Position numbers and translations under genes: made by a program | In this document: piece after piece, positions 3,299-19,661 of the stretch | Numbering within the stretch: the stretch's first letter is position 1 | Layout: the number at the start of each line of letters is the position of its first letter | Notes under the pieces: model-generated | Told to the model about the DNA's origin: nothing | What the model saw: only the letters and a program-made list of their open reading frames with translations | Database searches by the model: none | Virus record (IMG/VR): IMGVR_UViG_3300032177_000054 | Span: 1 to 29,154 of that record | Reading direction: 5' to 3' (one strand) | DNA from: a virus | DNA: 29,154 nucleotides

Positions 3299-4531
3299 AT
3301 GGACATACAGATAGACTTATCCTCATGGCAGCATTTTGCACTACAACTAATCCTTAGATTACGATTTTCAGTAATAAGCGCCGGACGACAAAGCGGGAAA
3401 ACCACATTACTAGTTTTTGTTATAGTATACATGGCCTTAAAAAAAGCAAATAGCATTAATTGGTGGGTGGCTCCAACCTATGCCCCAACAAAAATCGCCT
3501 TTAGACGTACGCTTAAATTCCTAATTAAAAACAAAATACCACATACCGTGAATCGATCGGAATTGAGAATTGAGCTACAAAATGGATCGACAATTGAGTT
3601 TAAATCGGGCGATAGAGAAGAAGGCCTAAGGGGTGAGTCTGTAAACTTTTTAGTTATAGACGAAATGGGACTTTTGAAAAGAATGGCTTGGGAAGAGGCT
3701 CTGCGGGGAACGATAACGGCTACCGAGGCAAAGTGTGTGTTTATCGGCACACCAAAAGGTAAAAATCTATTTTACGAATTATTTGCCAAAGGGCAGGATG
3801 TGCAAGAAAAGGAGTGGACTTCGATACAAGTATCTAGTAAAGAGTCTCCATACTTCCCCGATAACGAATGGGAAGAAGTCAAAAAAATGCCTGCCAGGAT
3901 ATTCGATCAGGAATATTGGGCGCATTTCATAGAGGACGGAGGCGAGGTTTTTAGGAGGATAACTGAATGCGTTCAGGGGTCATTGCAAGACTACAATAGT
4001 CATAAACAATATTTCGCAGGAGTAGACCTTGCTAAACATAGCGACTATACAGTTATATGTATTTTGGATAATAACGGTCATCTGGTGTATTTCGATCGGT
4101 TTAACGATATTGCTTGGACCATACAGAAAGCGAGGATAATAGACGCCTGCAATAAATATAATGCATATGCCCTTATAGATAGCACCGGTCTGGGTGATCC
4201 CATCCTTGACGACTTAACCATGCATATGCGGTGTGAGGGCTATAAATTTGATAATACATCTAAACGACATCTAATCGAAACACTATCCATGTCGATTGAG
4301 CGCACAGATATCACATTTCCAGAGATACCAGAGCTAATAAACGAGCTAAACATTTTTACATTTGACCAGTCGCCCTCTGGGCTGATACGCTATAACGCGC
4401 CGGACGGACTTCACGACGACATAGTAATATCACTCTCACTAGCTAATTTTATATACAAGAGACAATCTGGGCATAGCGTAGACGATTTTACAGATATTGG
4501 GAAACGGGTTGTTGAAGATTTTTATGCTTGA
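3299..4531 (+). CDS. terL: terminase large subunit
   Basis: This 410-aa packaging motor protein has a complete N-terminal ATPase: Walker A AGRQSGKTT (28-36), Walker B LVIDE with catalytic Glu (118-122) and the coupling motif GTPKG (150-154). The C-terminal RNase-H-like nuclease has its acidic residues at D243 (FAGVDLAKHSDYT), D294 (LIDSTGLGD) and D373/D374 (GLHDDIVIS). It docks on the portal, translocates DNA into the prohead and cuts concatemers. It belongs to the Terminase_6-type group and is slightly shorter than many members (420-550 aa) but has no missing motif. The TGA stop is embedded in the TTGACA of the next promoter. Confidence 0.95.
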   Translation: MDIQIDLSSWQHFALQLILRLRFSVISAGRQSGKTTLLVFVIVYMALKKANSINWWVAPTYAPTKIAFRRTLKFLIKNKIPHTVNRSELRIELQNGSTIEFKSGDREEGLRGESVNFLVIDEMGLLKRMAWEEALRGTITATEAKCVFIGTPKGKNLFYELFAKGQDVQEKEWTSIQVSSKESPYFPDNEWEEVKKMPARIFDQEYWAHFIEDGGEVFRRITECVQGSLQDYNSHKQYFAGVDLAKHSDYTVICILDNNGHLVYFDRFNDIAWTIQKARIIDACNKYNAYALIDSTGLGDPILDDLTMHMRCEGYKFDNTSKRHLIETLSMSIERTDITFPEIPELINELNIFTFDQSPSGLIRYNAPDGLHDDIVISLSLANFIYKRQSGHSVDDFTDIGKRVVEDFYA

Positions 4532-4591: not shown

Positions 4592-5470
4592 ATGAAATAT
4601 TTGTTATATCGGCTTCAATGGTTTCTCGCACAATACATTCAATTCGACCACCCCATACACGTAGACATAGAGATTAATAATAACTGCAATCAAAAATGTA
4701 TGTCGTGTTGGCACTCTGATGCAAGCAAACGTAAGTTTAAAATTGAAACAATGCCGTACGAAGATGTAATGTGTAACATCGACTATTTTAAAGTCCTAGG
4801 GTGTAAGAGCATTAAATTTAATCTACGTGGCGAGCCTTTTTTAAACGAGCAACTAGAGCAGTATTTAAGATACGCTAAAAAGCTTGGTTATGTCGATGTG
4901 ATGCTAAATACAAACCTTACGTGCAACAAACAAAAGCTAATTAAATGCCTGCCTTACATCGACACGTTGATAGTTAGCCTGGATTCATTCGAGTCTAAGA
5001 CGTACAATAAACTACATGGTACCGACAACGACTACATTAAATTATTATACAACCTTAGAATACTTAGCGAGTTAAGCGACCTAGGAAAGCTCAAAACACG
5101 AATAATACTAAACTACCATGTAAACAAATACAATGCACTTGAAAGTCATCCTAAAACATATATGGGATTTAAAATTATCTATCGATATACACAGAATAGA
5201 GAAGGACAGAATATTTCTATTAAGCTCAATGACAAAAGAAAGAAAAAATGCCCACACATGATGAGACGTGTTACCGTTATGGCAAACGGAAAGATGTATC
5301 CATGTTGTGTGTGCTACAACGAGCCTAATGACATTAGAGTCGATGATATATACTCCGATGGCAAAAACGGAAAATATGAATCCCACTTTCGTAATGCTCT
5401 GATAGATACATATAGCTTTAACATGCAAGAGTCGTGCAAGAACTGCACTTCACAGGATGTATACAAATGA
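4592..5470 (+). CDS. radical SAM/SPASM-like enzyme
   Basis: This 292-aa protein has a radical SAM CxxxCxxC motif at C32, C36 and C39 (NNNCNQKCMSCW), which ligates the 4Fe-4S cluster that cleaves SAM, and a GGE-like motif (LRGEPFLNEQL). The barrel strands LMLNTNLTC-like and DTLIVSLDSF follow. Its C-terminus has the cysteine pattern of a SPASM/twitch auxiliary-cluster domain: C220, then C238/C239/C241, then C282/C285. Related enzymes modify peptides or sugars. Since the next genes handle nucleotide sugars, a sugar epimerase, dehydratase or deoxygenase role is inferred, but peptide modification cannot be excluded. It overlaps the next gene by 4 nt (ATGA). Confidence 0.88.
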   Translation: MKYLLYRLQWFLAQYIQFDHPIHVDIEINNNCNQKCMSCWHSDASKRKFKIETMPYEDVMCNIDYFKVLGCKSIKFNLRGEPFLNEQLEQYLRYAKKLGYVDVMLNTNLTCNKQKLIKCLPYIDTLIVSLDSFESKTYNKLHGTDNDYIKLLYNLRILSELSDLGKLKTRIILNYHVNKYNALESHPKTYMGFKIIYRYTQNREGQNISIKLNDKRKKKCPHMMRRVTVMANGKMYPCCVCYNEPNDIRVDDIYSDGKNGKYESHFRNALIDTYSFNMQESCKNCTSQDVYK

Positions 5471-6780
5471 GAAAAGATGAGAACGTCGGAATTATAGTTA
5501 CTGCTAGAGTGCGGTCGAACAGGATACGGGAAAAGGTACTTCAAAAGATAGGGAATAGATTGGCGATAGAGATATTGCTAGATCACATAGTTAATCCTAA
5601 ATACCCTGTAATTCTGGCCATACCTACTAACGAGGCAGACGACATCCTGGCAGATATAGCAGAAGAAAAAGGCGTACTGTGTTTTAGGGGGAATGACGAT
5701 AGCCCTTTACATAGAATCGTAGATTGTGCGGACGCTTACGACTTTGACCATGTAGTGCGAGTAACAGCGGACGACATTCTCATTGACTTGCAGATAATGC
5801 TTAACCAGATACGCTTTCATCTGGCGGGAACACAAGACTATACGTATTGCAGACGATTGCCAGAGGGGTGTGGCGTAGAAGTAATTAAAACAGATGTTTT
5901 AAGACAGACCGTAAAAGATGTTGGGAATAAGCCCATTGAATTCATAAGCTATTATATCAAAGATAAATACGTAACAAAAGAATACTACCCGCACTTAGAT
6001 TTTCAGCATGCTTATAGATGCACAATGGATTACCCAGAGGACGTAACAATGTTACGCCTTCTATTCGCCTGTATGGATAGCCCTGGAACGCTGGACATTA
6101 TAAACTTCCTCGAGAAACACTCGTATTTTTGCAAAATAAATCAACTGCCAATTGTTACAATTTACACGTGCAACTATAATACATCCAAATACATTGTTGA
6201 CTGTATGAACTCAGTAGTAGCGCAAGCGTTCGACGAATTTGAGTACATTGTGCTTGACGACTGCTCGAGTGACGATAGTATGAACATAATTACGGAATGG
6301 TATACTAATCAGAATCAATCTGTACAAAAAAAAGTGAGGATATTGAGAAATGATACAAACATTGGGCTTTCTGCTTCTTCCAATAAAATGCTTAATGTGG
6401 CTCGCGGTCGCTACATTATTCGTGTTGATAGTGACGATACCGTATTACCTTCTATGCTTAGTCGTATGGTTGAGGAAGTCAAAAATAATGATTGTCAGGC
6501 CATCCTTTCTGGCTTTAATTCTGTGAAAGAAAACGGAGACATTATTTCTTATGAGAGAGAAAACCCCTTCCATCCTGGGTGCTCGCTAATATCAAGATGG
6601 GCTGCAAACGAATTGAAATATAGAGAAGACTTGGAGTTTATGGAAGGACAGGAATTTTTTAAACGATTCAACGAAGCGTACAAAGTGAGATTTATAAAAG
6701 ATGCGTTATGGAATTATCGTAGACGCCCTGGACAGAAGACACAGGACGCAAGGCACCCAAATAATACTGAAAAGGACTAA
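5467..6780 (+). CDS. SpsF-like cytidylyltransferase fused to GT2 glycosyltransferase
   Basis: This is a 437-aa two-domain protein, starting at the ATGA overlap at 5467 rather than at an in-frame ATG further up. Residues 1 to about 220 match SpsF/CMP-sugar synthetase-type nucleotidyltransferases: GIIVTARVRSNRIREKVL (equivalent to IxARxxSxRLPGKVL), PTNEADDILADIAEEKGV, CFRGNDDSPLHR, and RVTADDILID. Residues 229 to about 430 are a GT-A family 2 glycosyltransferase: TIYTCNYNTSKYI, LDDCSSDDS, and RVDSDD with the metal-binding DxD at D321-D323. The fusion suggests one protein both activates a sugar (probably with CMP) and transfers a sugar. The usual PG in LPGK is replaced by RE. Substrates are unknown. 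Confidence 0.88.
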   Translation: MRKDENVGIIVTARVRSNRIREKVLQKIGNRLAIEILLDHIVNPKYPVILAIPTNEADDILADIAEEKGVLCFRGNDDSPLHRIVDCADAYDFDHVVRVTADDILIDLQIMLNQIRFHLAGTQDYTYCRRLPEGCGVEVIKTDVLRQTVKDVGNKPIEFISYYIKDKYVTKEYYPHLDFQHAYRCTMDYPEDVTMLRLLFACMDSPGTLDIINFLEKHSYFCKINQLPIVTIYTCNYNTSKYIVDCMNSVVAQAFDEFEYIVLDDCSSDDSMNIITEWYTNQNQSVQKKVRILRNDTNIGLSASSNKMLNVARGRYIIRVDSDDTVLPSMLSRMVEEVKNNDCQAILSGFNSVKENGDIISYERENPFHPGCSLISRWAANELKYREDLEFMEGQEFFKRFNEAYKVRFIKDALWNYRRRPGQKTQDARHPNNTEKD

Positions 6781-6784
6781 CAAA

Positions 6785-7648
6785 ATGAAAAAGAAATTAC
6801 TGGTTACCGGCGGGAACGGGTTCATTGGTTCGCACTACGTGGACCTAGTAAAAGACAAATATGATGTTACGGTTTATGATCTCCCAGAAAACGACATTTT
6901 AGAATACGAAAAACTATGCCTATACATTAGCCGATGTGATATTGTTGTGCACTTTGCCGCGATTGCCGACCTATACGAAACAGCCAAGGACTACGAAAAA
7001 AACTTTAACGTAAATGTTACCGCAACTACTTGTATCGGCCGACTATGCCAAAGGATGAACAAAAAGCTCGTATATATTTCCACTTGCTGTGCATACGGAA
7101 ATAGCATGGACAAGGTCGAGAAAGAATTTTATACCAATCCCATGACAGACGAGCCATACGCCTGTAGCAAAGTCGCAGCCGAGTACATGCTTAGAGGTAT
7201 ACATGATCTTAAATACGCAATACTCAGGATAGGGACCGCTTATGGACCACGACAAAGGGAGACGCTTTTTACATATCGCGCTATTGACTATATCAAAAAA
7301 GGTAAAACAATCACAGTACATGGTGATGGCAAGCAAGACAGAAACCTTATTTATATTGCTGATCTCGTTGAAGGTATTAAGCTGGCTACTGACAAAATAA
7401 GCAGCATACAAGGCGAGATTATAAATCTATGCGGGAAGGAGCGAATATCGGCACTTGATACGATAGCCCACGCTGAACGGGTAACAGGGATTAAGGCTAA
7501 AGTTAAGCATGGGAAAGACCGTCAAGGCCAGATACGCCACGAAAACATATCAATTAAAAAAGCAAAAGAATTGCTAGGATGGGAGCCTAAAGCATCATTT
7601 AAAAAAGGCATGGACTTATCTCACAAAAATGATGAGAGGTTTAATTGA
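6785..7648 (+). CDS. NAD-dependent epimerase/dehydratase (extended SDR)
   Basis: This 287-aa protein has the Rossmann glycine motif TGGNGFIG (8-15), FAAIADL after the fourth strand, YISTCCAYG with the catalytic Ser/Thr, and the active-site Y-x3-K at Y125/K129 (YACSKVAAEY). The later RIGTAYGPRQ and GDGKQDRNLIYIADL stretches are typical of UDP-glucose 4-epimerase/dTDP-glucose dehydratase relatives. It probably epimerises or oxidises a nucleotide sugar. I chose ATG 6785, 4 nt after the previous stop, because the upstream part of the open frame lies inside the preceding gene. At 287 aa it is slightly shorter than usual (about 310-340). Confidence 0.9.
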   Translation: MKKKLLVTGGNGFIGSHYVDLVKDKYDVTVYDLPENDILEYEKLCLYISRCDIVVHFAAIADLYETAKDYEKNFNVNVTATTCIGRLCQRMNKKLVYISTCCAYGNSMDKVEKEFYTNPMTDEPYACSKVAAEYMLRGIHDLKYAILRIGTAYGPRQRETLFTYRAIDYIKKGKTITVHGDGKQDRNLIYIADLVEGIKLATDKISSIQGEIINLCGKERISALDTIAHAERVTGIKAKVKHGKDRQGQIRHENISIKKAKELLGWEPKASFKKGMDLSHKNDERFN

Positions 7649-7652
7649 TAAT

Positions 7653-7931
7653 ATGAAATATAATATCTTAATAGCGTTTTATCTATCAACATTTATTGCA
7701 CTGTTTGCGTTCGTTGGCTGTGAACTAAGCGAGTACAAAGAAAAGACTGGCGACGCTTATGCAAGCCGATACTATCGCTATGTAATACGCACAGAGATTA
7801 CGGTATATGAGTGCGACAATGTCTACGTGTCATCACAGTCAGAAAATAGTTTGTACTGTGAATGTTATCGCGATGATGGCACAAAAATCATTGTCAAGGG
7901 CAGCCACGCTATAGAGAGATATAACAGATAA
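7653..7931 (+). CDS. putative lipoprotein
   Basis: This 92-aa protein begins MKYNILIAFYLSTFIALFA, a signal sequence ending in a lipobox-like AFVGC, so Cys would be lipidated at about residue 23. The mature part is small, polar, with three further cysteines (YECDN, YCECYRD), beta-rich, and could sit on an envelope surface. I prefer ATG 7653, which follows GAGG at 7634-7637, over an in-frame ATG at 7629 that overlaps the epimerase. Small phage lipoproteins often block superinfection by binding receptors; that is inference here. Confidence 0.6.
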   Translation: MKYNILIAFYLSTFIALFAFVGCELSEYKEKTGDAYASRYYRYVIRTEITVYECDNVYVSSQSENSLYCECYRDDGTKIIVKGSHAIERYNR

Positions 7932-8236
7932 TGCAGACTTTATTTGCTTGCACACAAGAGGATTTTTTAAAACAGATTTATAGGATATCGTCCCAGAATT
8001 TAGTAAAACTGCTATATGAGATATACGAGCTGAAGCACGACAGAGGGCAGTTTTGGGATGAAAGCACAATGATGGATATTGAGCGAAAAGAAACAAAGAT
8101 AAATGCAGAGCTAATTCGCAGAGGGTATCTTGACAAAAAGGGATACGAAGAGTACTTTAGAATGATGAGAAAGCTAGGGAATGGTAAAAAGAAAGTGTTT
8201 ACGCATGGCGTTCCTGTTATAGGTAAAACAGAATGA
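7931..8236 (+). CDS. hypothetical helical protein in glycan cassette
   Basis: This 101-aa charged protein is mainly alpha-helical (DFLKQIYRISSQNLVKLLY, DESTMMDIERKETKINAELI) with a basic C-terminus ending GVPVIGKTE. No signal peptide, membrane segment or known motif was found. It starts at a TAATG overlap with the lipoprotein gene and ends in an ATGA overlap with the aldolase gene, so it is co-translated with them. It may be a small partner of one of these proteins; function unknown. Confidence 0.6.
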   Translation: MQTLFACTQEDFLKQIYRISSQNLVKLLYEIYELKHDRGQFWDESTMMDIERKETKINAELIRRGYLDKKGYEEYFRMMRKLGNGKKKVFTHGVPVIGKTE

Positions 8237-8937
8237 TAATAGCAGGTGACTGTTTATATACTGACTATCTTGATGAAGACAGAATAATACATAACGCCGA
8301 AGAATTAAAAGGCGTTGTTGATTATTTTAGATGCAAGATTTTTGGTGGCGGCACTAGGCCAGATAGATATATTGCAGGAATAGGAATAAATGGGATTGAA
8401 ACGCTATCATATATCGACAAAGAAATTATCCCATGCGGAACAGAGATACAAACATTATCTCAATACAAAATGTGTGATACATTATCTTATCACTGGATAG
8501 GCGCAAGGAATAGTCAAAACTACGGTTTTTTAAATGAGATATCATGCAGTAAAAAAGACGTTATGATTAAGCGTGGAGCCTCAATAACTATAGACGAGAC
8601 CATTGGATTATTTGATATTATGAAGCATATCAACAACAAAGAAGTGTATATTATAGAGCGTGGGATAAATACTTTTGATAGACTTGACGACTCGCGCTGG
8701 TCACCTGACCTTAAGGGAGTTATACGCATTAAGCACGAACGGCCAGATATATTTGATAGACTTATTATAGACTGCTCTCATAGCGTAGGACGCAAAGAAT
8801 ATGTAGCAGATACATACAAAGCGTTCAAGGCTATTGGCATAAAGCATTTTATGTTTGAGTGCACGATAGATGGATTCAGCAAGACTGATTATAGGCACAT
8901 GTTGAGCGCTAAAGAATTAAAGGAGTTACTGAAATGA
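8233..8937 (+). CDS. DAHP-synthase-like PEP aldolase with altered acceptor site
   Basis: This 234-aa protein follows the class I DAHP synthase (AroG/AroF type) barrel: IIAGDC at 2-7, WIGARNSQN (88-96), VMIKRG (110-115), YIIERGINTF (139-148), IIDCSHSVGRK (178-188), FMFECTID (206-213). The metal ligands are present (C7, H183, E209, D219), as are residues that hold PEP in the family (A91-R92, K113, R143, H183). However, the K-P-R-[ST] motif that binds erythrose 4-phosphate is replaced by GGGTRPD (38-44), GPCS is GDCL, and ERGIRTF is ERGINTF. It probably condenses PEP, or a close analogue, with a different aldehyde to make a ulosonic acid. There is no ACT or chorismate-mutase regulatory domain. 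An inactive homologue is the alternative. Confidence 0.8.
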   Translation: MIIAGDCLYTDYLDEDRIIHNAEELKGVVDYFRCKIFGGGTRPDRYIAGIGINGIETLSYIDKEIIPCGTEIQTLSQYKMCDTLSYHWIGARNSQNYGFLNEISCSKKDVMIKRGASITIDETIGLFDIMKHINNKEVYIIERGINTFDRLDDSRWSPDLKGVIRIKHERPDIFDRLIIDCSHSVGRKEYVADTYKAFKAIGIKHFMFECTIDGFSKTDYRHMLSAKELKELLK

Positions 8938-10238
8938 TTAGACTAGAAAATTGCCCGATTTGTGACACTGACGACTGGAAGAAGTTAGACTATCTCAGGG
9001 ACCTTGAAAGGTGGTACGACAATGACTACAGGGAAGAGGGCGAGCAGGTAGGGTTTAAAATATGCAAACATTGCGGTTTTGTAACGTATGACTACGTAGA
9101 AGTAGATAGGCTTCAAAAGTTGTATACGCAACTTAGACCGATGGTTCGGGCTGAAAATGTTGTCACGCAGCGCAGAAAGAATTTATATCACAACGAGATG
9201 ATATTTAACAAACTTGACTCACATTTTATGGATCGCAGAAAAAATAATTTGAGATGCCTCGACGTGGGATGTGCAACGGGAGAATTTCTGGACCTGTTAA
9301 AGTCATATAATATTTTCAACGAATACTATGGTACGGAATGGTCAAAGGGATTTGTCGGATATGCCAAGAACGAATTTGGATTTAAAATTACAGAAGAAAT
9401 AGATACATCTATCAAATACGACTTTATATCATACTATCACGTACTAGAGCATATCCAAAGCCCAGACAAAGAACTAGCGAAGATCAGAAACATTTTGAAT
9501 GACGACGGATTGCTATACATTGCAGTACCAACATGGTTTGTTGATATCGAAGAGCCGTCTGGTATGTCTTGCTTGGACTTTGAAGAGTATTTCCACCTTA
9601 ATCACGTTAATGTATTTAGTGAGATGTCTTTTTTAAATTTAATGCATAAATGCGGATTCGAAATAATCAAAACAGATAAAAAAATGTATGGGTATGCAGT
9701 TCTATGCAAAAAGACCGATGCAACATATAATGTTGTGATTGAATCATACGAAGAGAAAGTGTCGATGCTCGAGATAATCAAAACGGCAATGGACTTTGCC
9801 ATAAAGAATGACTTTGTTAATGCTATAAAAACATTCCCTAAATATCCTGAAGCGTATTGTTATCTAAGCGTTAATAAGGAAAACCAGAAAAGCCTTAAGG
9901 TTCAAGAGCAGTTGCTCGAAGGAGGCCTAAAGCACAGTCCGCTGAACAAAAAATTAAAAATCCAATTGGCTAAACTATATATACAGTGGGACGAAAATAC
10001 CGGAGACAATCGGTTTTATTCCAACAATATTAAAAAATCAGAACGGCTATGGAACGAATTGATGAAAGATTGCATTGCACTAGAGGAGCCACAGTACTAC
10101 CTAGGCATAATAAATGGCAACTATAAGGGCGAATACAAAAAAGCGATTGAGTGTTTTAAAGACGTTATGGAGGCGAATCCATTAAGATATGGCGAGATAT
10201 TAAACTTAATAGGGTACTATTCCAAGTTTTTGTCTTGA
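8934..10238 (+). CDS. zinc-ribbon SAM methyltransferase with TPR-like tail
   Basis: This is a 434-aa protein in three parts. Residues 1-50 form a zinc ribbon (C7-x2-C10, C44-x2-C47) of the kind preceding sugar C-methyltransferases (Methyltransf_13 type). Residues about 100-255 are a class I SAM methyltransferase: motif I LDVGCATGEF (109 onward), YYHVLEH (around H169-H173), and LLYIAVPTWF. The classical C-terminal Methyltransf_14 domain is not evident. Instead, residues about 270-434 are helical and TPR-like (EPQYYLGIINGNYKGEYKKAIECFKDVMEANP), perhaps for protein or glycan-complex binding. It probably methylates a nucleotide sugar or glycan. Its TGA overlaps the next TTGACA promoter. Confidence 0.85.
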   Translation: MIRLENCPICDTDDWKKLDYLRDLERWYDNDYREEGEQVGFKICKHCGFVTYDYVEVDRLQKLYTQLRPMVRAENVVTQRRKNLYHNEMIFNKLDSHFMDRRKNNLRCLDVGCATGEFLDLLKSYNIFNEYYGTEWSKGFVGYAKNEFGFKITEEIDTSIKYDFISYYHVLEHIQSPDKELAKIRNILNDDGLLYIAVPTWFVDIEEPSGMSCLDFEEYFHLNHVNVFSEMSFLNLMHKCGFEIIKTDKKMYGYAVLCKKTDATYNVVIESYEEKVSMLEIIKTAMDFAIKNDFVNAIKTFPKYPEAYCYLSVNKENQKSLKVQEQLLEGGLKHSPLNKKLKIQLAKLYIQWDENTGDNRFYSNNIKKSERLWNELMKDCIALEEPQYYLGIINGNYKGEYKKAIECFKDVMEANPLRYGEILNLIGYYSKFLS

Positions 10239-10313: not shown

Positions 10314-12632
10314 TTGAGACTAGGAAGTTTAGAACTAAAAAGATACAAAGCTCCTATTGTTGAATCAATGCCCGCTAGGCAAGGGGCTGAAACTTCTTAC
10401 GCTGACTCGACTTATTATGATAAGTATTCGTTAAAACCATATAATCCCGACTCGCTCTATCAAAAAAACTCTGGGTATGCAATACACGACCAGATGAGAG
10501 AGGATGACCAGATATCATCTGTGCTTGGGCTAAAGAAACTTATCACACTTAATGCTGACTATGATATCGAATGCGAGGATGATGATGTACGCAACTTTCT
10601 ATTTGATTGTTTCGATAAATATATTGATGGAACATTTAGGTCAAAGCTATACGAGATACTGTCGTGTATGGATTATGGCTTTAGCATCACAGAAAAAATA
10701 GCGTCAGTAATAGAAACAAAAGACGGGAACAGGATTGTATTTAACAAACTAAAGACACGCGCCCCGCACACGTTCGAAATACACACAGATGACTTTGGCA
10801 ATACTACCGAGATAATGCAGCATACCGGCAAAAAAGGCGACATATCACTAGACCCAAAAAAATTTATACTCTATAGCTATAATTCTGAATTTGATAATCC
10901 TTACGGAAAGACACTTTTTAACAAAGGTGTTTATCGCGCTTGGTGGTCAAAGGATGCTATTATTAAATTCTGGAATATGTACCTTGAACGATTTGGAATG
11001 CCGCTAACGGTAGGCACGATACCTAAGTCAGCCTCCACAGAGGACAAGGATAGATTTAAAACAGCCTTAGGATCAATACAATCGCGTACCGCACTCACTG
11101 TCCCTGAAGGATTTCTAGTAGACCTTAAAAAGGCTAGTGAAACGCCTGGGGAATTCGAAAAAGCAATTGATAAATATAATACGATGATGGCACGCTCAAT
11201 GCTTGTACCTGACCTACTTGGGTTCAGTGGGAGCGAGACTGGCGGCGGGTCGTTTGCTCTAGGTAAAGAGCAGTTTAACATCTTTTATACAGGCATTGAA
11301 TACGATAGACAGAATTTAGCAAATATCATCCAGCGAGAATTAGTTAATCCACTTGTATCGTGGAATTTTGGATCTAAGGTTGAGGCTTACTTTTGTTGGA
11401 AACAGGTTGATAGCGACAAGAAGCTAAACGACATGAAGCTTTGGATTGAAGCCGTTAAGACTGGCAAAGTGCCTGTTAAAGGCGATCACGTAAATTGGTT
11501 CCTGTCTGGAGTGGGCGCACCGGAAATAGATCAAGACGAACTAGACATTATCGACGATCAAAAAGACGCTATGAGAGAAAATCTTTCCGGTGTAGTTGGT
11601 GCAAATAATGCACAGGCTCAACCTGAAGGCGAAGCGCAAGACAAAACACAAGAAACGATAGAAGAAAACAAAGAACAAATACAAGAAAAAGAAGAGCCAG
11701 AGAAATCAGATGATAGCCAAGCCGAAAAGCAAATGTGCGAATGTGGGCATGAACATACCTATCAAGAGATAAACGACATAAGCCTTGACTCGCTTTCTCA
11801 ATACGAAAAGAAAGCTGATTTCTCAAAAATCATAAAAGAAACCGACAATATTGAAGCTAAATACAAAGAGCTTCTAGGAAACATATTTAAGACATCGATA
11901 AATGCCCTAGTTGACGAGATAAGAACCAGAAAAATAATAGAGAAAAAAAGAATCGACTCAATTAATAAGCTCAACCTTAAATATCAACCACAGATAAAAA
12001 AGATAGTTAAGGATATGATGAGCGAGTCCGTTGTGTTGGGCGAGACTACCGCGCCGATACCAAATAAGTACAAAAAGTACGACCTGGTTGATGTTACGTC
12101 ACAGCTTAACGACGATGATATAGCAACGTGGATTGATAACTACGCTTTTTATGTATCTGACATGGAGGCAGGATTTATACTAGGAAAAGTAAAGCCTATA
12201 CTTATGTCGGCGATACAGAAGGGCTTGGGAACGGCCGAAACAGTTAAGCTAATCAACGACGCTCTCATAGGATACGATATTAAAACTACAGAGACCGGCG
12301 GTAGTGCTCGCATAGATATTATAGTTAGGACAAACGTAAACAAGGCCTACAATCAGGCACTCGTAAAAGACTTTGCTCGAATACAAGAATACATACAAGC
12401 TTATCAGATCAGCGCGATAATGGATAAACGGACAAGCGCAACCTGCCAAGCATTAAATCACAAAATAATTAAAGCCAACCAACTTAGTTATTATACTCCG
12501 CCCTTCCACTTTCGATGCCGAACAACGCTAGTGCCAATATTCATAGACGAGGAACCGGTTGACTGGAATAGTCCCGAAGCGCAGCTTCCCGCGACAGATC
12601 AAGCAGAAGGAGGGTTTTTAGAGCTTAAATGA
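10314..12632 (+). CDS. portal protein (DUF935, Mu gp29-like) fused to MuF head-morphogenesis domain
   Basis: This 772-aa fusion has a DUF935 portal at residues 1 to about 420 (MREDDQISSVLGLKKLI early; PDLLGFSGSETGGGSFALGKEQF and LVNPLVSWNFG late). A low-complexity Glu/Gln/Lys linker (about 430-480) follows, with a Cys/His knot CECGHEH at C475-H481. The MuF (gp30/SPP1 gp7-like) domain ends the protein: RTNVNKAYNQAL (672 onward), DKRTSATCQALN (704 onward), FHFRCRTTLVP (731 onward). In Mu these are separate proteins. The portal is the DNA channel at the head vertex, and MuF is a minor head protein. The start is TTG with no clear ribosome site and an in-frame stop just upstream; the first ATG is codon 19. 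Confidence 0.9.
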   Translation: MRLGSLELKRYKAPIVESMPARQGAETSYADSTYYDKYSLKPYNPDSLYQKNSGYAIHDQMREDDQISSVLGLKKLITLNADYDIECEDDDVRNFLFDCFDKYIDGTFRSKLYEILSCMDYGFSITEKIASVIETKDGNRIVFNKLKTRAPHTFEIHTDDFGNTTEIMQHTGKKGDISLDPKKFILYSYNSEFDNPYGKTLFNKGVYRAWWSKDAIIKFWNMYLERFGMPLTVGTIPKSASTEDKDRFKTALGSIQSRTALTVPEGFLVDLKKASETPGEFEKAIDKYNTMMARSMLVPDLLGFSGSETGGGSFALGKEQFNIFYTGIEYDRQNLANIIQRELVNPLVSWNFGSKVEAYFCWKQVDSDKKLNDMKLWIEAVKTGKVPVKGDHVNWFLSGVGAPEIDQDELDIIDDQKDAMRENLSGVVGANNAQAQPEGEAQDKTQETIEENKEQIQEKEEPEKSDDSQAEKQMCECGHEHTYQEINDISLDSLSQYEKKADFSKIIKETDNIEAKYKELLGNIFKTSINALVDEIRTRKIIEKKRIDSINKLNLKYQPQIKKIVKDMMSESVVLGETTAPIPNKYKKYDLVDVTSQLNDDDIATWIDNYAFYVSDMEAGFILGKVKPILMSAIQKGLGTAETVKLINDALIGYDIKTTETGGSARIDIIVRTNVNKAYNQALVKDFARIQEYIQAYQISAIMDKRTSATCQALNHKIIKANQLSYYTPPFHFRCRTTLVPIFIDEEPVDWNSPEAQLPATDQAEGGFLELK

Positions 12633-17444: not shown

Positions 17445-18470
17445 ATGCTTACTGAAAAAGAAGTACACGATCAGTCTGTTAGGGCGTTCGAGCATTGGAA
17501 AACGATTTGGGATGAGAATACCAAGGCCAATGGCGAGTTATTAAAAAAGATTAAAACAAGCCAAAAACATTTATTAAACCTAGGCTTTGGCAAAAAACTT
17601 TTATGTGTTGCTTGTGGTGCAAGCCTAGAAACAAAAATTGATATTGTTAAAAAATACAAAACTGACGCGCTTGATATTGCTTGCGTAGATAAAGCACTTC
17701 CAATACTTATCGAACATGGGCTACACCCTAAATATGTATTTCTTGCCGACGCCGGAGTGTCCTACGAAAAGTACTGTGAAAAATATATAGGCCAGACAGA
17801 AGACATGGTTCTCATTTCTAATGTTCAGGCCAACCCTAAATGGTCGCACAACTGGAAGGGTAAAGTTGTTTTTTATGTAAATAAAGATAACATCGGAAGC
17901 GAGGCGATATATTCACCCATGTCTGGATGTGTAGAAATGATACCGGCATCAAGTAACGTCGGGAATAGCGTTATTGTGTTTAGTACACAAATACTAGGAT
18001 ATGACGAGTACCTTATGCTAGGGTATGACTTTGGATTTGGAATAGATACTCATTACTACGCATTCGAGGATAACGATAAAAGATATTGGATGAAACATGC
18101 ACAGCTTATAGATTATAGCGGAAATATTTGTTACTCATCGCAAAACTTAATATTTAGCAGCAAGTGGTTGGATGATTTTAATAGCACGATGGTTAAATCA
18201 AAAGGAATTAAGCTGCATAACTGCTCAGGATGCGGAGTGTCTGGAGTCCATCCGGCTAACCTAGAAAAGAAAATAAAGAATCTTAAATTTAGAAAATTAA
18301 CCGACGATGAAAAACTTAAGATACTAAATTCACGTATAGAAACAATATCTTTGACTGCACAGGATGGCGCTCAGGCCTTACAGCAAGCTCTTGAAAGCCA
18401 TAATGTCATAGGTATTAAATTGGACTACGTACCACATGAGGTTAACACATGGCTAAACTCAGGTATATAG
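17445..18470 (+). CDS. Maf/DUF115-family glycosyltransferase-like protein
   Basis: This 341-aa protein starts at ATG 17445 after AGAGG (17436-17440). It carries the DUF115 (MAF_flag10/MptE-like) core: a nucleotide-binding-type loop VACGASLE (55-62), ALPILIEHGLHPKYVFLADAG, LISNVQANP, and the strongly conserved SSNVGNSVIVFSTQILGYDEYLMLGYDFGF (from about 169). Maf proteins in flagellated bacteria transfer nonulosonic acids such as pseudaminic acid onto flagellin; other relatives are hydroxymethylpterin kinases. Position in the tail operon, between terminator and tube, points to glycosylation of a tail protein. It partners in this reading with the aldolase and cytidylyltransferase of the 4592-10238 cassette. 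Confidence 0.85.
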   Translation: MLTEKEVHDQSVRAFEHWKTIWDENTKANGELLKKIKTSQKHLLNLGFGKKLLCVACGASLETKIDIVKKYKTDALDIACVDKALPILIEHGLHPKYVFLADAGVSYEKYCEKYIGQTEDMVLISNVQANPKWSHNWKGKVVFYVNKDNIGSEAIYSPMSGCVEMIPASSNVGNSVIVFSTQILGYDEYLMLGYDFGFGIDTHYYAFEDNDKRYWMKHAQLIDYSGNICYSSQNLIFSSKWLDDFNSTMVKSKGIKLHNCSGCGVSGVHPANLEKKIKNLKFRKLTDDEKLKILNSRIETISLTAQDGAQALQQALESHNVIGIKLDYVPHEVNTWLNSGI

Positions 18471-18638: not shown

Positions 18639-19661
18639 ATGACTATAGGAAACAATACCCCATTTTTTGGATTCGACAGTGCGGTTGGCGTTGCAAAGGA
18701 AACTACTTTCGGTACTTTTGTAACGGCCACGACTTTTATAGAATTTAACAGTGAAGGCTTTAAACAAGAGCGCGATTCTAAAACTCTTGAATCAATCAAT
18801 GCTTCACGCGATCCCAAAAAGCGAGTAACATTTAACGAGAATATTTCAGGATCAATTGAGGCTGAGCTTAATCTTGCAAGTGACGGTATCATCAATATAC
18901 TTAAACAGGGCATGGGCGGGACATGTTCAAGCGTAGTTACAAGCGCGGGAGTTAGCTACACGCATACTCTTTATTCTGGAGACATGGAAAACAATAAGCC
19001 AACTTCAACCGGATCGGACATGAAGTCGCTTAGTTTTCAGGTGCGTAAAGGTAGTACGCATGTATGGTGTTACGCGGGCATGAGGGCTAACACTTTATCT
19101 TTTAAAGCGGAATCCGGCGGTCCTGTAGTTTTTAGTTCTGAATTGATCGGGCAAACATGTAGTATAACAAGCACAATACCAGCGATTAGCGTTACAGATG
19201 TTAACCCATGTACTTTTGTTGGCGTAACCGTACAAACCGGAGCAACCACGACATCACTGGCTACAGAATATTTTAAGAGCTTTGAGCTGACCATCAACAA
19301 TAACCTAGATGGTGAGCAAAGGGTGTTGGGATCGCGAAACGTAGTGTGTTTGCCACCGAAAAGACGTGAAACAAAGCTAAAATTTACACAGATATTTGAT
19401 ACGATAACGGCTTATAATAGATTTCTAGCCGAAACAATTACCGCCATTAAAATATCTATTACGGGGCCGACTATAGCAAGCTCCAGCCTTCCACATCAGC
19501 TTGACATTACACTACCTAGGTGTTATTTTAAATCTAATATGCCGACAGTTGGGGGACCAGATCCAATTATGTTGGAAATGGAATGTGACGTGCTTTATGA
19601 CTCTGCTTTGGGTAGTGCTGTAAAAATGGAAGTAATAAACGGCACCGCTGCATACGCATAA
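18639..19661 (+). CDS. tail tube protein
   Basis: This 340-aa protein is beta-rich with a starting segment typical of phage tube proteins: NTPFFGFDSAVGVAKETTFGTF...FIEFNSEGFKQERDSKTLESINASRDP. Later segments include GSIEAELNLASDGI and FKSFELTINNNLDGEQRVLGSRN. The layout fits a duplicated tube domain (Phage_tube_2 group), which polymerises into a hollow tube guided by the tape measure. The absence of any sheath gene indicates a non-contractile tail. GAGG precedes the ATG. This protein is a candidate target for the upstream Maf-like enzyme. Confidence 0.8.
   Translation: MTIGNNTPFFGFDSAVGVAKETTFGTFVTATTFIEFNSEGFKQERDSKTLESINASRDPKKRVTFNENISGSIEAELNLASDGIINILKQGMGGTCSSVVTSAGVSYTHTLYSGDMENNKPTSTGSDMKSLSFQVRKGSTHVWCYAGMRANTLSFKAESGGPVVFSSELIGQTCSITSTIPAISVTDVNPCTFVGVTVQTGATTTSLATEYFKSFELTINNNLDGEQRVLGSRNVVCLPPKRRETKLKFTQIFDTITAYNRFLAETITAIKISITGPTIASSSLPHQLDITLPRCYFKSNMPTVGGPDPIMLEMECDVLYDSALGSAVKMEVINGTAAYA

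Follow-up and report, generated by a model that had tools for sequence, protein, structure and literature searches.

A DAHP synthase-like protein with a replaced acceptor motif is a putative ulosonate synthase in a phage gene cassette

Why would a phage carry a DAHP synthase (DAHPS)-like aldolase whose acceptor-binding motif has been replaced, and what might such an enzyme make? The question is raised by a gene at positions 8233-8937 (+ strand, 234 aa) of the window, the whole stretch of 29,154 bases analysed here, which is the entire viral record G000. As it encodes a terminase, a portal, head and tail genes and a tape-measure-like protein, the window belongs to a tailed phage. The earlier note on this DNA had proposed that a conserved PEP side combined with a changed aldehyde side points to a new substrate, and so possibly to an uncommon ulosonic acid; the predicted fold, a clade-fixed motif change, the genomic context and the exchange of the gene for NeuB all support this proposal. 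We consider it likely that the protein, which we term variant A, arose from class I-beta DAHPS and works as a ulosonate synthase that depends on a metal, uses PEP, takes a new aldose acceptor and feeds CMP activation and transfer.

Six linked genes, all on the + strand, fill the interval between the genes of the terminase large subunit (3299-4531, +) and the portal protein (10314-12632, +), the latter assigned by position and conservation and marking the right boundary of the cassette. The cassette opens with a radical SAM protein with a SPASM-like C-terminus (CNQKCMSC; 4592-5470; PF04055, 3.8e-8), relatives of which are present in the other cassettes save where the contig is cut; its assignment as a viperin was rejected on score (51.6 against a cut-off of 180 bits). 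It is followed by an SpsF-like cytidylyltransferase (CTP_transf_3) fused to a GT2 domain (5467-6780; PF02348, 1.1e-14; PF00535, 1.8e-25), with 40-58% identity among core relatives, by an SDR nucleotide-sugar epimerase/dehydratase (6785-7648; PF01370, 1.9e-38), for which SDR sugar epimerases head the PDB profile matches, and by a helical protein of about 100 aa (7931-8236) that is kept in the core cassette. The model of this small protein has a pLDDT of 76, and a structural search of the PDB gave no match for it. Between it and the SDR gene lies an ORF of 100 aa with an N-terminal hydrophobic stretch (7629-7931), for which we found no clear family match and noted no counterpart in the other cassettes. 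The DAHPS-like gene comes next and overlaps both neighbours by ATGA, at its start and at its stop, as expected of a co-translated operon. The cassette closes with a SAM methyltransferase (8934-10238; PF13489, 6.5e-22) with a Cys-rich N-terminus, whose PDB profile matches are to methyltransferases and to the TPRs of OGT. Its TPR-like C-terminus, with O-GlcNAc transferase repeats among the matches, could recognise the protein that receives the modification. Further downstream, a Maf/MptE-like gene (17445-18470, +) lies directly upstream of the gene of the major tail protein (18639-19661, +), also assigned by position and conservation. The cytidylyltransferase, glycosyltransferase, epimerase and Maf that the earlier note had listed as context are all recovered by Pfam, as the SpsF-like-GT2 fusion, the SDR and the Maf-like protein.

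The DAHPS-like protein matches Pfam DAHP_synth_1 (PF00793, 1.1e-19) over nearly its full length, and its AlphaFold model, a TIM barrel, has a pLDDT of 92.2 and a pTM of 0.90. The best matches of this model in Foldseek and VIA are class I-beta DAHPS (Z 28-29.5, TMq 0.85-0.88), followed by KDO8PS (Z about 27.8). Structure prediction, which had been suggested as a check, thus recovers the DAHPS I-beta fold, and the metal and PEP residues are kept by alignment. Placement by HMM, also suggested, puts the protein nearest to DAHPS I-beta yet far below the equivalog cut-offs, with NCBIfam DAHPS models reaching 90.5 and 85.7 bits against cut-offs of 335 and 267.75. The KDO8PS models are far weaker (15.5 and 15.2 bits against 242 and 314), and no PF03102 (NeuB) match was found for the synthase or anywhere in the window record.

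Roles were assigned to the active-site residues by alignment, following their published functions in DAHPS. The alignment confirms C7, H183, E209 and D219 as metal ligands, and the PEP contacts G90-A91-R92, K113, R143 and H183 are present as had been claimed; the beta-2 PEP arginine (LRGG), missing from that list, is also retained, as R33. On the aldehyde side, the reported change of KPR[ST] to GGGTRPD stands as regards the loss of Lys, Pro and Arg, but the Thr is kept (G38-G39-G40-T41) and RPD represents the next three residues. Similarly, the change of ERGIRTF to ERGINTF holds for the lost Arg but not for a conserved Asn: residue 146 is N in five, V in three and S in one of the variant A sequences, so that ERGINTF is just the commonest form.

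Eight further viral contigs carry variant A, at 36-61% identity and with invariant catalytic positions, and the nine sequences form a single clade with a support of 100/100 and a long stem. We compared them with 17 ordinary relatives, comprising DAHPS from viral contigs and from bacteria. K38, P39 and R40 occur in none of the nine and in all of the 17, the motif being xGGT in 9/9, and R146, the Arg of ERGIR, follows the same distribution (0/9 against 17/17). Conversely, a new lysine, K35, is present in 9/9 and in 0/17; located two residues past R33, it is an attractive candidate for a relocated catalytic lysine. C7, R33, K113, R143, H183, E209 and D219 do not vary in either set, and R92 is found in every variant A sequence and in 15 of the 17 ordinary ones. 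W88, W156, P158, R165 and R170 are also fixed in variant A, position 45 is basic throughout (R45 or K45), and one member has AAR in place of GAR. With differences fixed both ways and the metal and PEP residues kept, the pattern looks maintained by selection rather than left by decay; as read from these alignments, variant A is neither a product of chance nor a decaying enzyme.

Scans with an alignment of the window protein and ordinary DAHPS identified L005 (57% identity) and L006 (40%), a pattern of a hydrophobic residue followed by ERGINTF identified L032 and L035, and scans with alignments of the SpsF-GT2 protein and the methyltransferase identified L057, L058, L059 and L070. Scans of viral and genome contigs for close relatives with the single window protein found none, and scanning genome contigs with the variant alignment gave only L031, an ordinary archaeal DAHPS. 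No cellular variant A appeared in one motif-based scan, whose narrow patterns would miss some viral members too. The INPHARED matches to the synthase are unannotated records, and the three inspected carry an ordinary KPRT, not variant A; in the same collection, the methyltransferase and the Maf-like protein had no match, and the matches to the GT2 and cytidylyltransferase parts are partial only. The cassette was not found in any isolated phage of the collection examined, and our literature searches found no description of this system.

All variant A members sit in a cassette of one type, made of the radical SAM protein, SpsF-GT2, usually the SDR (absent in L035, L057 and L059, distant in L058), the protein of about 100 aa, the synthase and the methyltransferase. 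It recurs in 14 viral contigs and in a more distant one, L022, with several gene orders relative to the terminase. Judged by gene content and linkage, a predicted PEP-dependent synthase, a cytidylyltransferase and a transferase are encoded together in the 14 contigs. In L035, the methyltransferase frame (5518-6834, - strand) is broken by an in-frame stop near 5965 beyond which the homology continues, indicating either a damaged gene or recoding. An extra radical SAM gene (L071:4820-5908) lies between the cassette radical SAM and SpsF-GT2 genes of a NeuB-bearing phage.

The synthase slot itself can be filled in other ways. In G008 (L060), G010 (L071) and G011 (L072), the cassette has no PF00793 protein, and each of them has NeuB. 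In G010, NeuB has taken the variant's own position, flanked by the genes of the small protein and the methyltransferase, and in G011 it lies between a weak cytidylyltransferase match (PF02348, 0.0025) and an SDR 50% identical to that of the window. NeuB is absent from every variant A or variant B contig searched. Nine contigs were found through cassette genes other than the synthase, and six of them carry DAHPS and three NeuB, never both or neither; in this small sample, in which several contigs are fragments, such exclusivity has a chance of 1 in 84 if the labels are independent, or 1 in 35 when near-duplicates are left out (n=7). Because NeuB and DAHPS co-occur in the other phages G014 and G018, we claim exclusivity for this cassette alone. 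Taken together, the replacement by NeuB makes the predicted ulosonate-synthase role of variant A well supported.

Variant B (G012/G013), encoded at L076:8153-8920 and in L077 (100% identical over 14.8 kb) in a different phage type, occupies the same cassette slot with KYRS for KPRT, LRGIMGLW for ERGIRTF and GSR for GAR, and the more distant cassette of L022 has an ordinary KPRS/ERGIR enzyme. Since L022 keeps both ordinary motifs and variant B keeps K-Y-R-S, remodelling is not needed for cassette membership. For variants A and B taken together, the data neither establish nor reject a common origin (p-AU 0.116).

Of the 14 cassette contigs, 11 have a PF01973 gene and the remaining three stop short of the tail module; the L022 record has one too, which makes 12/12 among the cassette contigs of sufficient length. 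In 11/11 contigs examined, the major tail protein gene comes next to it. By comparison, 12 unrelated viral contigs have neither PF01973 (0/12) nor NeuB (0/12). In the window, the PF01973 match (6e-16) exceeds the Pfam cut-off, and the NCBIfam flagellin modification model PseD gives 3.7e-9, with 35.8 bits against a cut-off of 670. The phage protein corresponds to a core of about 340 aa, without the outer parts of the flagellin Maf. PF01973 also includes the pterin enzyme MptE, and an MptE-like pterin activity is, from the sequence, a possible alternative to the candidate role as a CMP-ulosonate protein transferase. Maf proteins put nonulosonic acids on Ser/Thr of flagellin, and a clostridial Maf uses CMP-Neu5Ac and CMP-KDO (PMC11339370). 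Because the Maf-like gene adjoins it, the major tail protein is the best acceptor candidate, and from gene position we infer that it may carry the glycan; its Ser plus Thr content (22.4%) is no outlier among the virion proteins. In G011, the small conserved protein is encoded immediately downstream of the major tail protein gene rather than within the cassette (L091:1251-1493), which also points to the tail protein as the target.

For the pathway as a whole, we infer the chemistry, the acceptor sugar, the product, the CMP activation and the target protein as follows. The enzyme would bind PEP and a divalent metal as in DAHPS, and its aldehyde pocket, having lost KPR and the Arg of ERGIR, would accept an aldose other than erythrose 4-phosphate and yield a 3-deoxy-2-ulosonic acid. 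Activation of this ulosonate with CTP would fall to the SpsF-like domain, and transfer of the activated sugar to the fused GT2, the Maf-like protein or both; CMP sugars are not the usual donors of GT2 enzymes, a point against the scheme. The SDR, the radical SAM protein and the methyltransferase may tailor the sugar, and the protein modified would probably be one of the phage's own, the major tail protein being the best candidate. The fullest version of this scheme, in which a phage-only DAHPS-derived clade makes an undescribed ulosonic acid that is CMP-activated and attached by a Maf-like transferase to the tail tube, with a synthase slot exchangeable between variant A, variant B, ordinary DAHPS and NeuB, is a serious but tentative possibility.

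Ordinary KPR[ST] DAHPS on viral contigs also adjoin CMP-sugar genes. A cytidylyltransferase follows the ordinary enzyme in L014 and in L026, where PF01973 precedes it, L017 combines an ordinary DAHPS with GT29 and a cytidylyltransferase, and GT29 comes after the ordinary DAHPS in L010 and L012. In L030, a cytidylyltransferase-HAD phosphatase fusion (5166-6362) lies directly after the ordinary DAHPS, which would fit synthesis of the ulosonate in phosphorylated form. A natural fusion of cytidylyltransferase and ordinary DAHPS is encoded at L027:7227-8723, with PF01973-like (just below the cut-off), SDR, dehydroquinate-synthase-like and HAD/nucleotidyltransferase genes upstream. Ordinary DAHPS genes beside GT29-type sialyltransferase-like genes, among portal and head genes, were observed in L008, L016, L017, L024, L010 and L012; these GT29-adjoining operons suggest that phages employ DAHPS more widely in CMP-ulosonate pathways. 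The chorismate-mutase-fused DAHPS of L015, with its shikimate-like neighbours, looks like host DNA from its sequence.

Does the acceptor aldose of variant A carry a phosphate? One without a terminal phosphate is more likely, since variant A lacks the arginines that bind phosphate and NeuB can take its place. A rival ulosonate synthase that uses a phosphorylated aldose, held by K35, R45/K45, R165 and R170, with dephosphorylation by a host phosphatase, appears rather unlikely. K35, R165 and R170, fixed in 9/9, and the basic residue at position 45 are candidate phosphate binders for it; as the fixed R165 and R170 could bind another anionic group, phosphate binding may not have been lost. It has to accommodate the loss, in all nine sequences, of the Arg that canonically binds the phosphate and of the Arg of ERGIR, and the fact that the replacing enzyme, NeuB, takes an unphosphorylated acceptor, as is the case for bacterial NeuB. 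No PF08282 phosphatase was found in any variant A record, compared with the ordinary phage DAHPS that adjoins the cytidylyltransferase-HAD fusion; this argument carries little weight, as PF08282 is also missing from several cassettes with ordinary phage DAHPS, and host phosphatases could act. The site to which the sugar goes may also differ from the virion. Phage glycosyltransferases often change O-antigen, and the GT2 part matches GtrB-like and other PHROG morons, so that the cassette sugar might modify the host envelope, for receptor masking or superinfection exclusion. We regard this reading as less probable than virion modification although not negligible, given that the cassette lies among virion genes, from terminase to portal, that the Maf-like gene adjoins the tail protein in 11/11 contigs and that we noted neither a flippase nor a membrane glycosyltransferase among the cassette genes.

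Two further readings deny the enzyme a new product. The retained DAHPS fold with its full PEP and metal set, and the listing of phage DAHPS as moron/auxiliary metabolic gene in PHROG 5045, would fit an ordinary DAHP synthase that serves aromatic amino acid synthesis. Such a role is very improbable in view of the loss of KPR and the ERGIR Arg in 9/9, the scores far under the equivalog cut-offs, the lack of any shikimate-pathway protein among the window proteins scanned and the replacement by NeuB in sister cassettes. Scarcely more credible is a homologue that is catalytically dead, or regulatory, and retained as a binding protein: the lysine canonically found near the aldehyde (K38 position) has gone and AAR stands for GAR in one member, but the four metal ligands and R33, R92, K113, R143 and H183 do not vary among the nine sequences, and an intact-looking NeuB as the replacement argues for enzymatic work. 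A ulosonate synthase with a new acceptor is the reading that we retain.

PHROG 5045 classes phage DAHPS with the auxiliary metabolic or moron genes, and the present analysis suggests that many may serve sugar-acid glycosylation. If the proposed function is correct, nature has provided a set of enzymes that share one scaffold but have altered aldehyde specificity, together with a ulosonic acid that is probably new; phages may also have a way of glycosylating their virions that resembles flagellin modification, and the evolution of acceptor choice between DAHPS, KDO8PS and NeuB becomes testable.

Among known systems, class I-beta DAHPS of the AroA(Q)/AroF type (1rzm, 1zco, 5j6f) share with variant A the TIM barrel (Z 28-29.5, 26-30% identity), the Cys/His/Glu/Asp metal site and the PEP Arg/Lys set. 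Variant A differs from them by xGGT in place of KPR[ST], an ERGIR motif without its Arg, the lack of a regulatory domain, longer beta1-alpha1 and post-ERGI loops, a conserved RW[SM]PD..G..RI..(E)R block and its location in a glycan cassette. KDO8P synthase (KdsA) belongs to the same superfamily (Z about 27.8, about 20% identity) and also makes a ulosonate for CMP activation, but KANRSS, its acceptor motif, is absent from the window synthase. NeuB, PseI and LegI (PF03102) have the same presumed job, joining PEP and an aldose into a ulosonate before CMP activation, whereas the window synthase is of a different family and has no AFP/SAF domain. The SpsF spore coat (sps) pathway likewise combines an SpsF-like CTP transferase, an SDR and a glycosyltransferase; in the phage, SpsF is fused to GT2 and the role of SpsE (NeuB) would be taken by the DAHPS derivative. 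Finally, Maf-dependent flagellin glycosylation in Campylobacter, Aeromonas and Clostridium also places a synthase, a cytidylyltransferase and a PF01973 protein beside the gene of an abundant filament protein, with the difference that here the genome is that of a phage, the neighbour is a tail protein gene instead of flagellin and the Maf-like protein is reduced to the core of about 340 aa.
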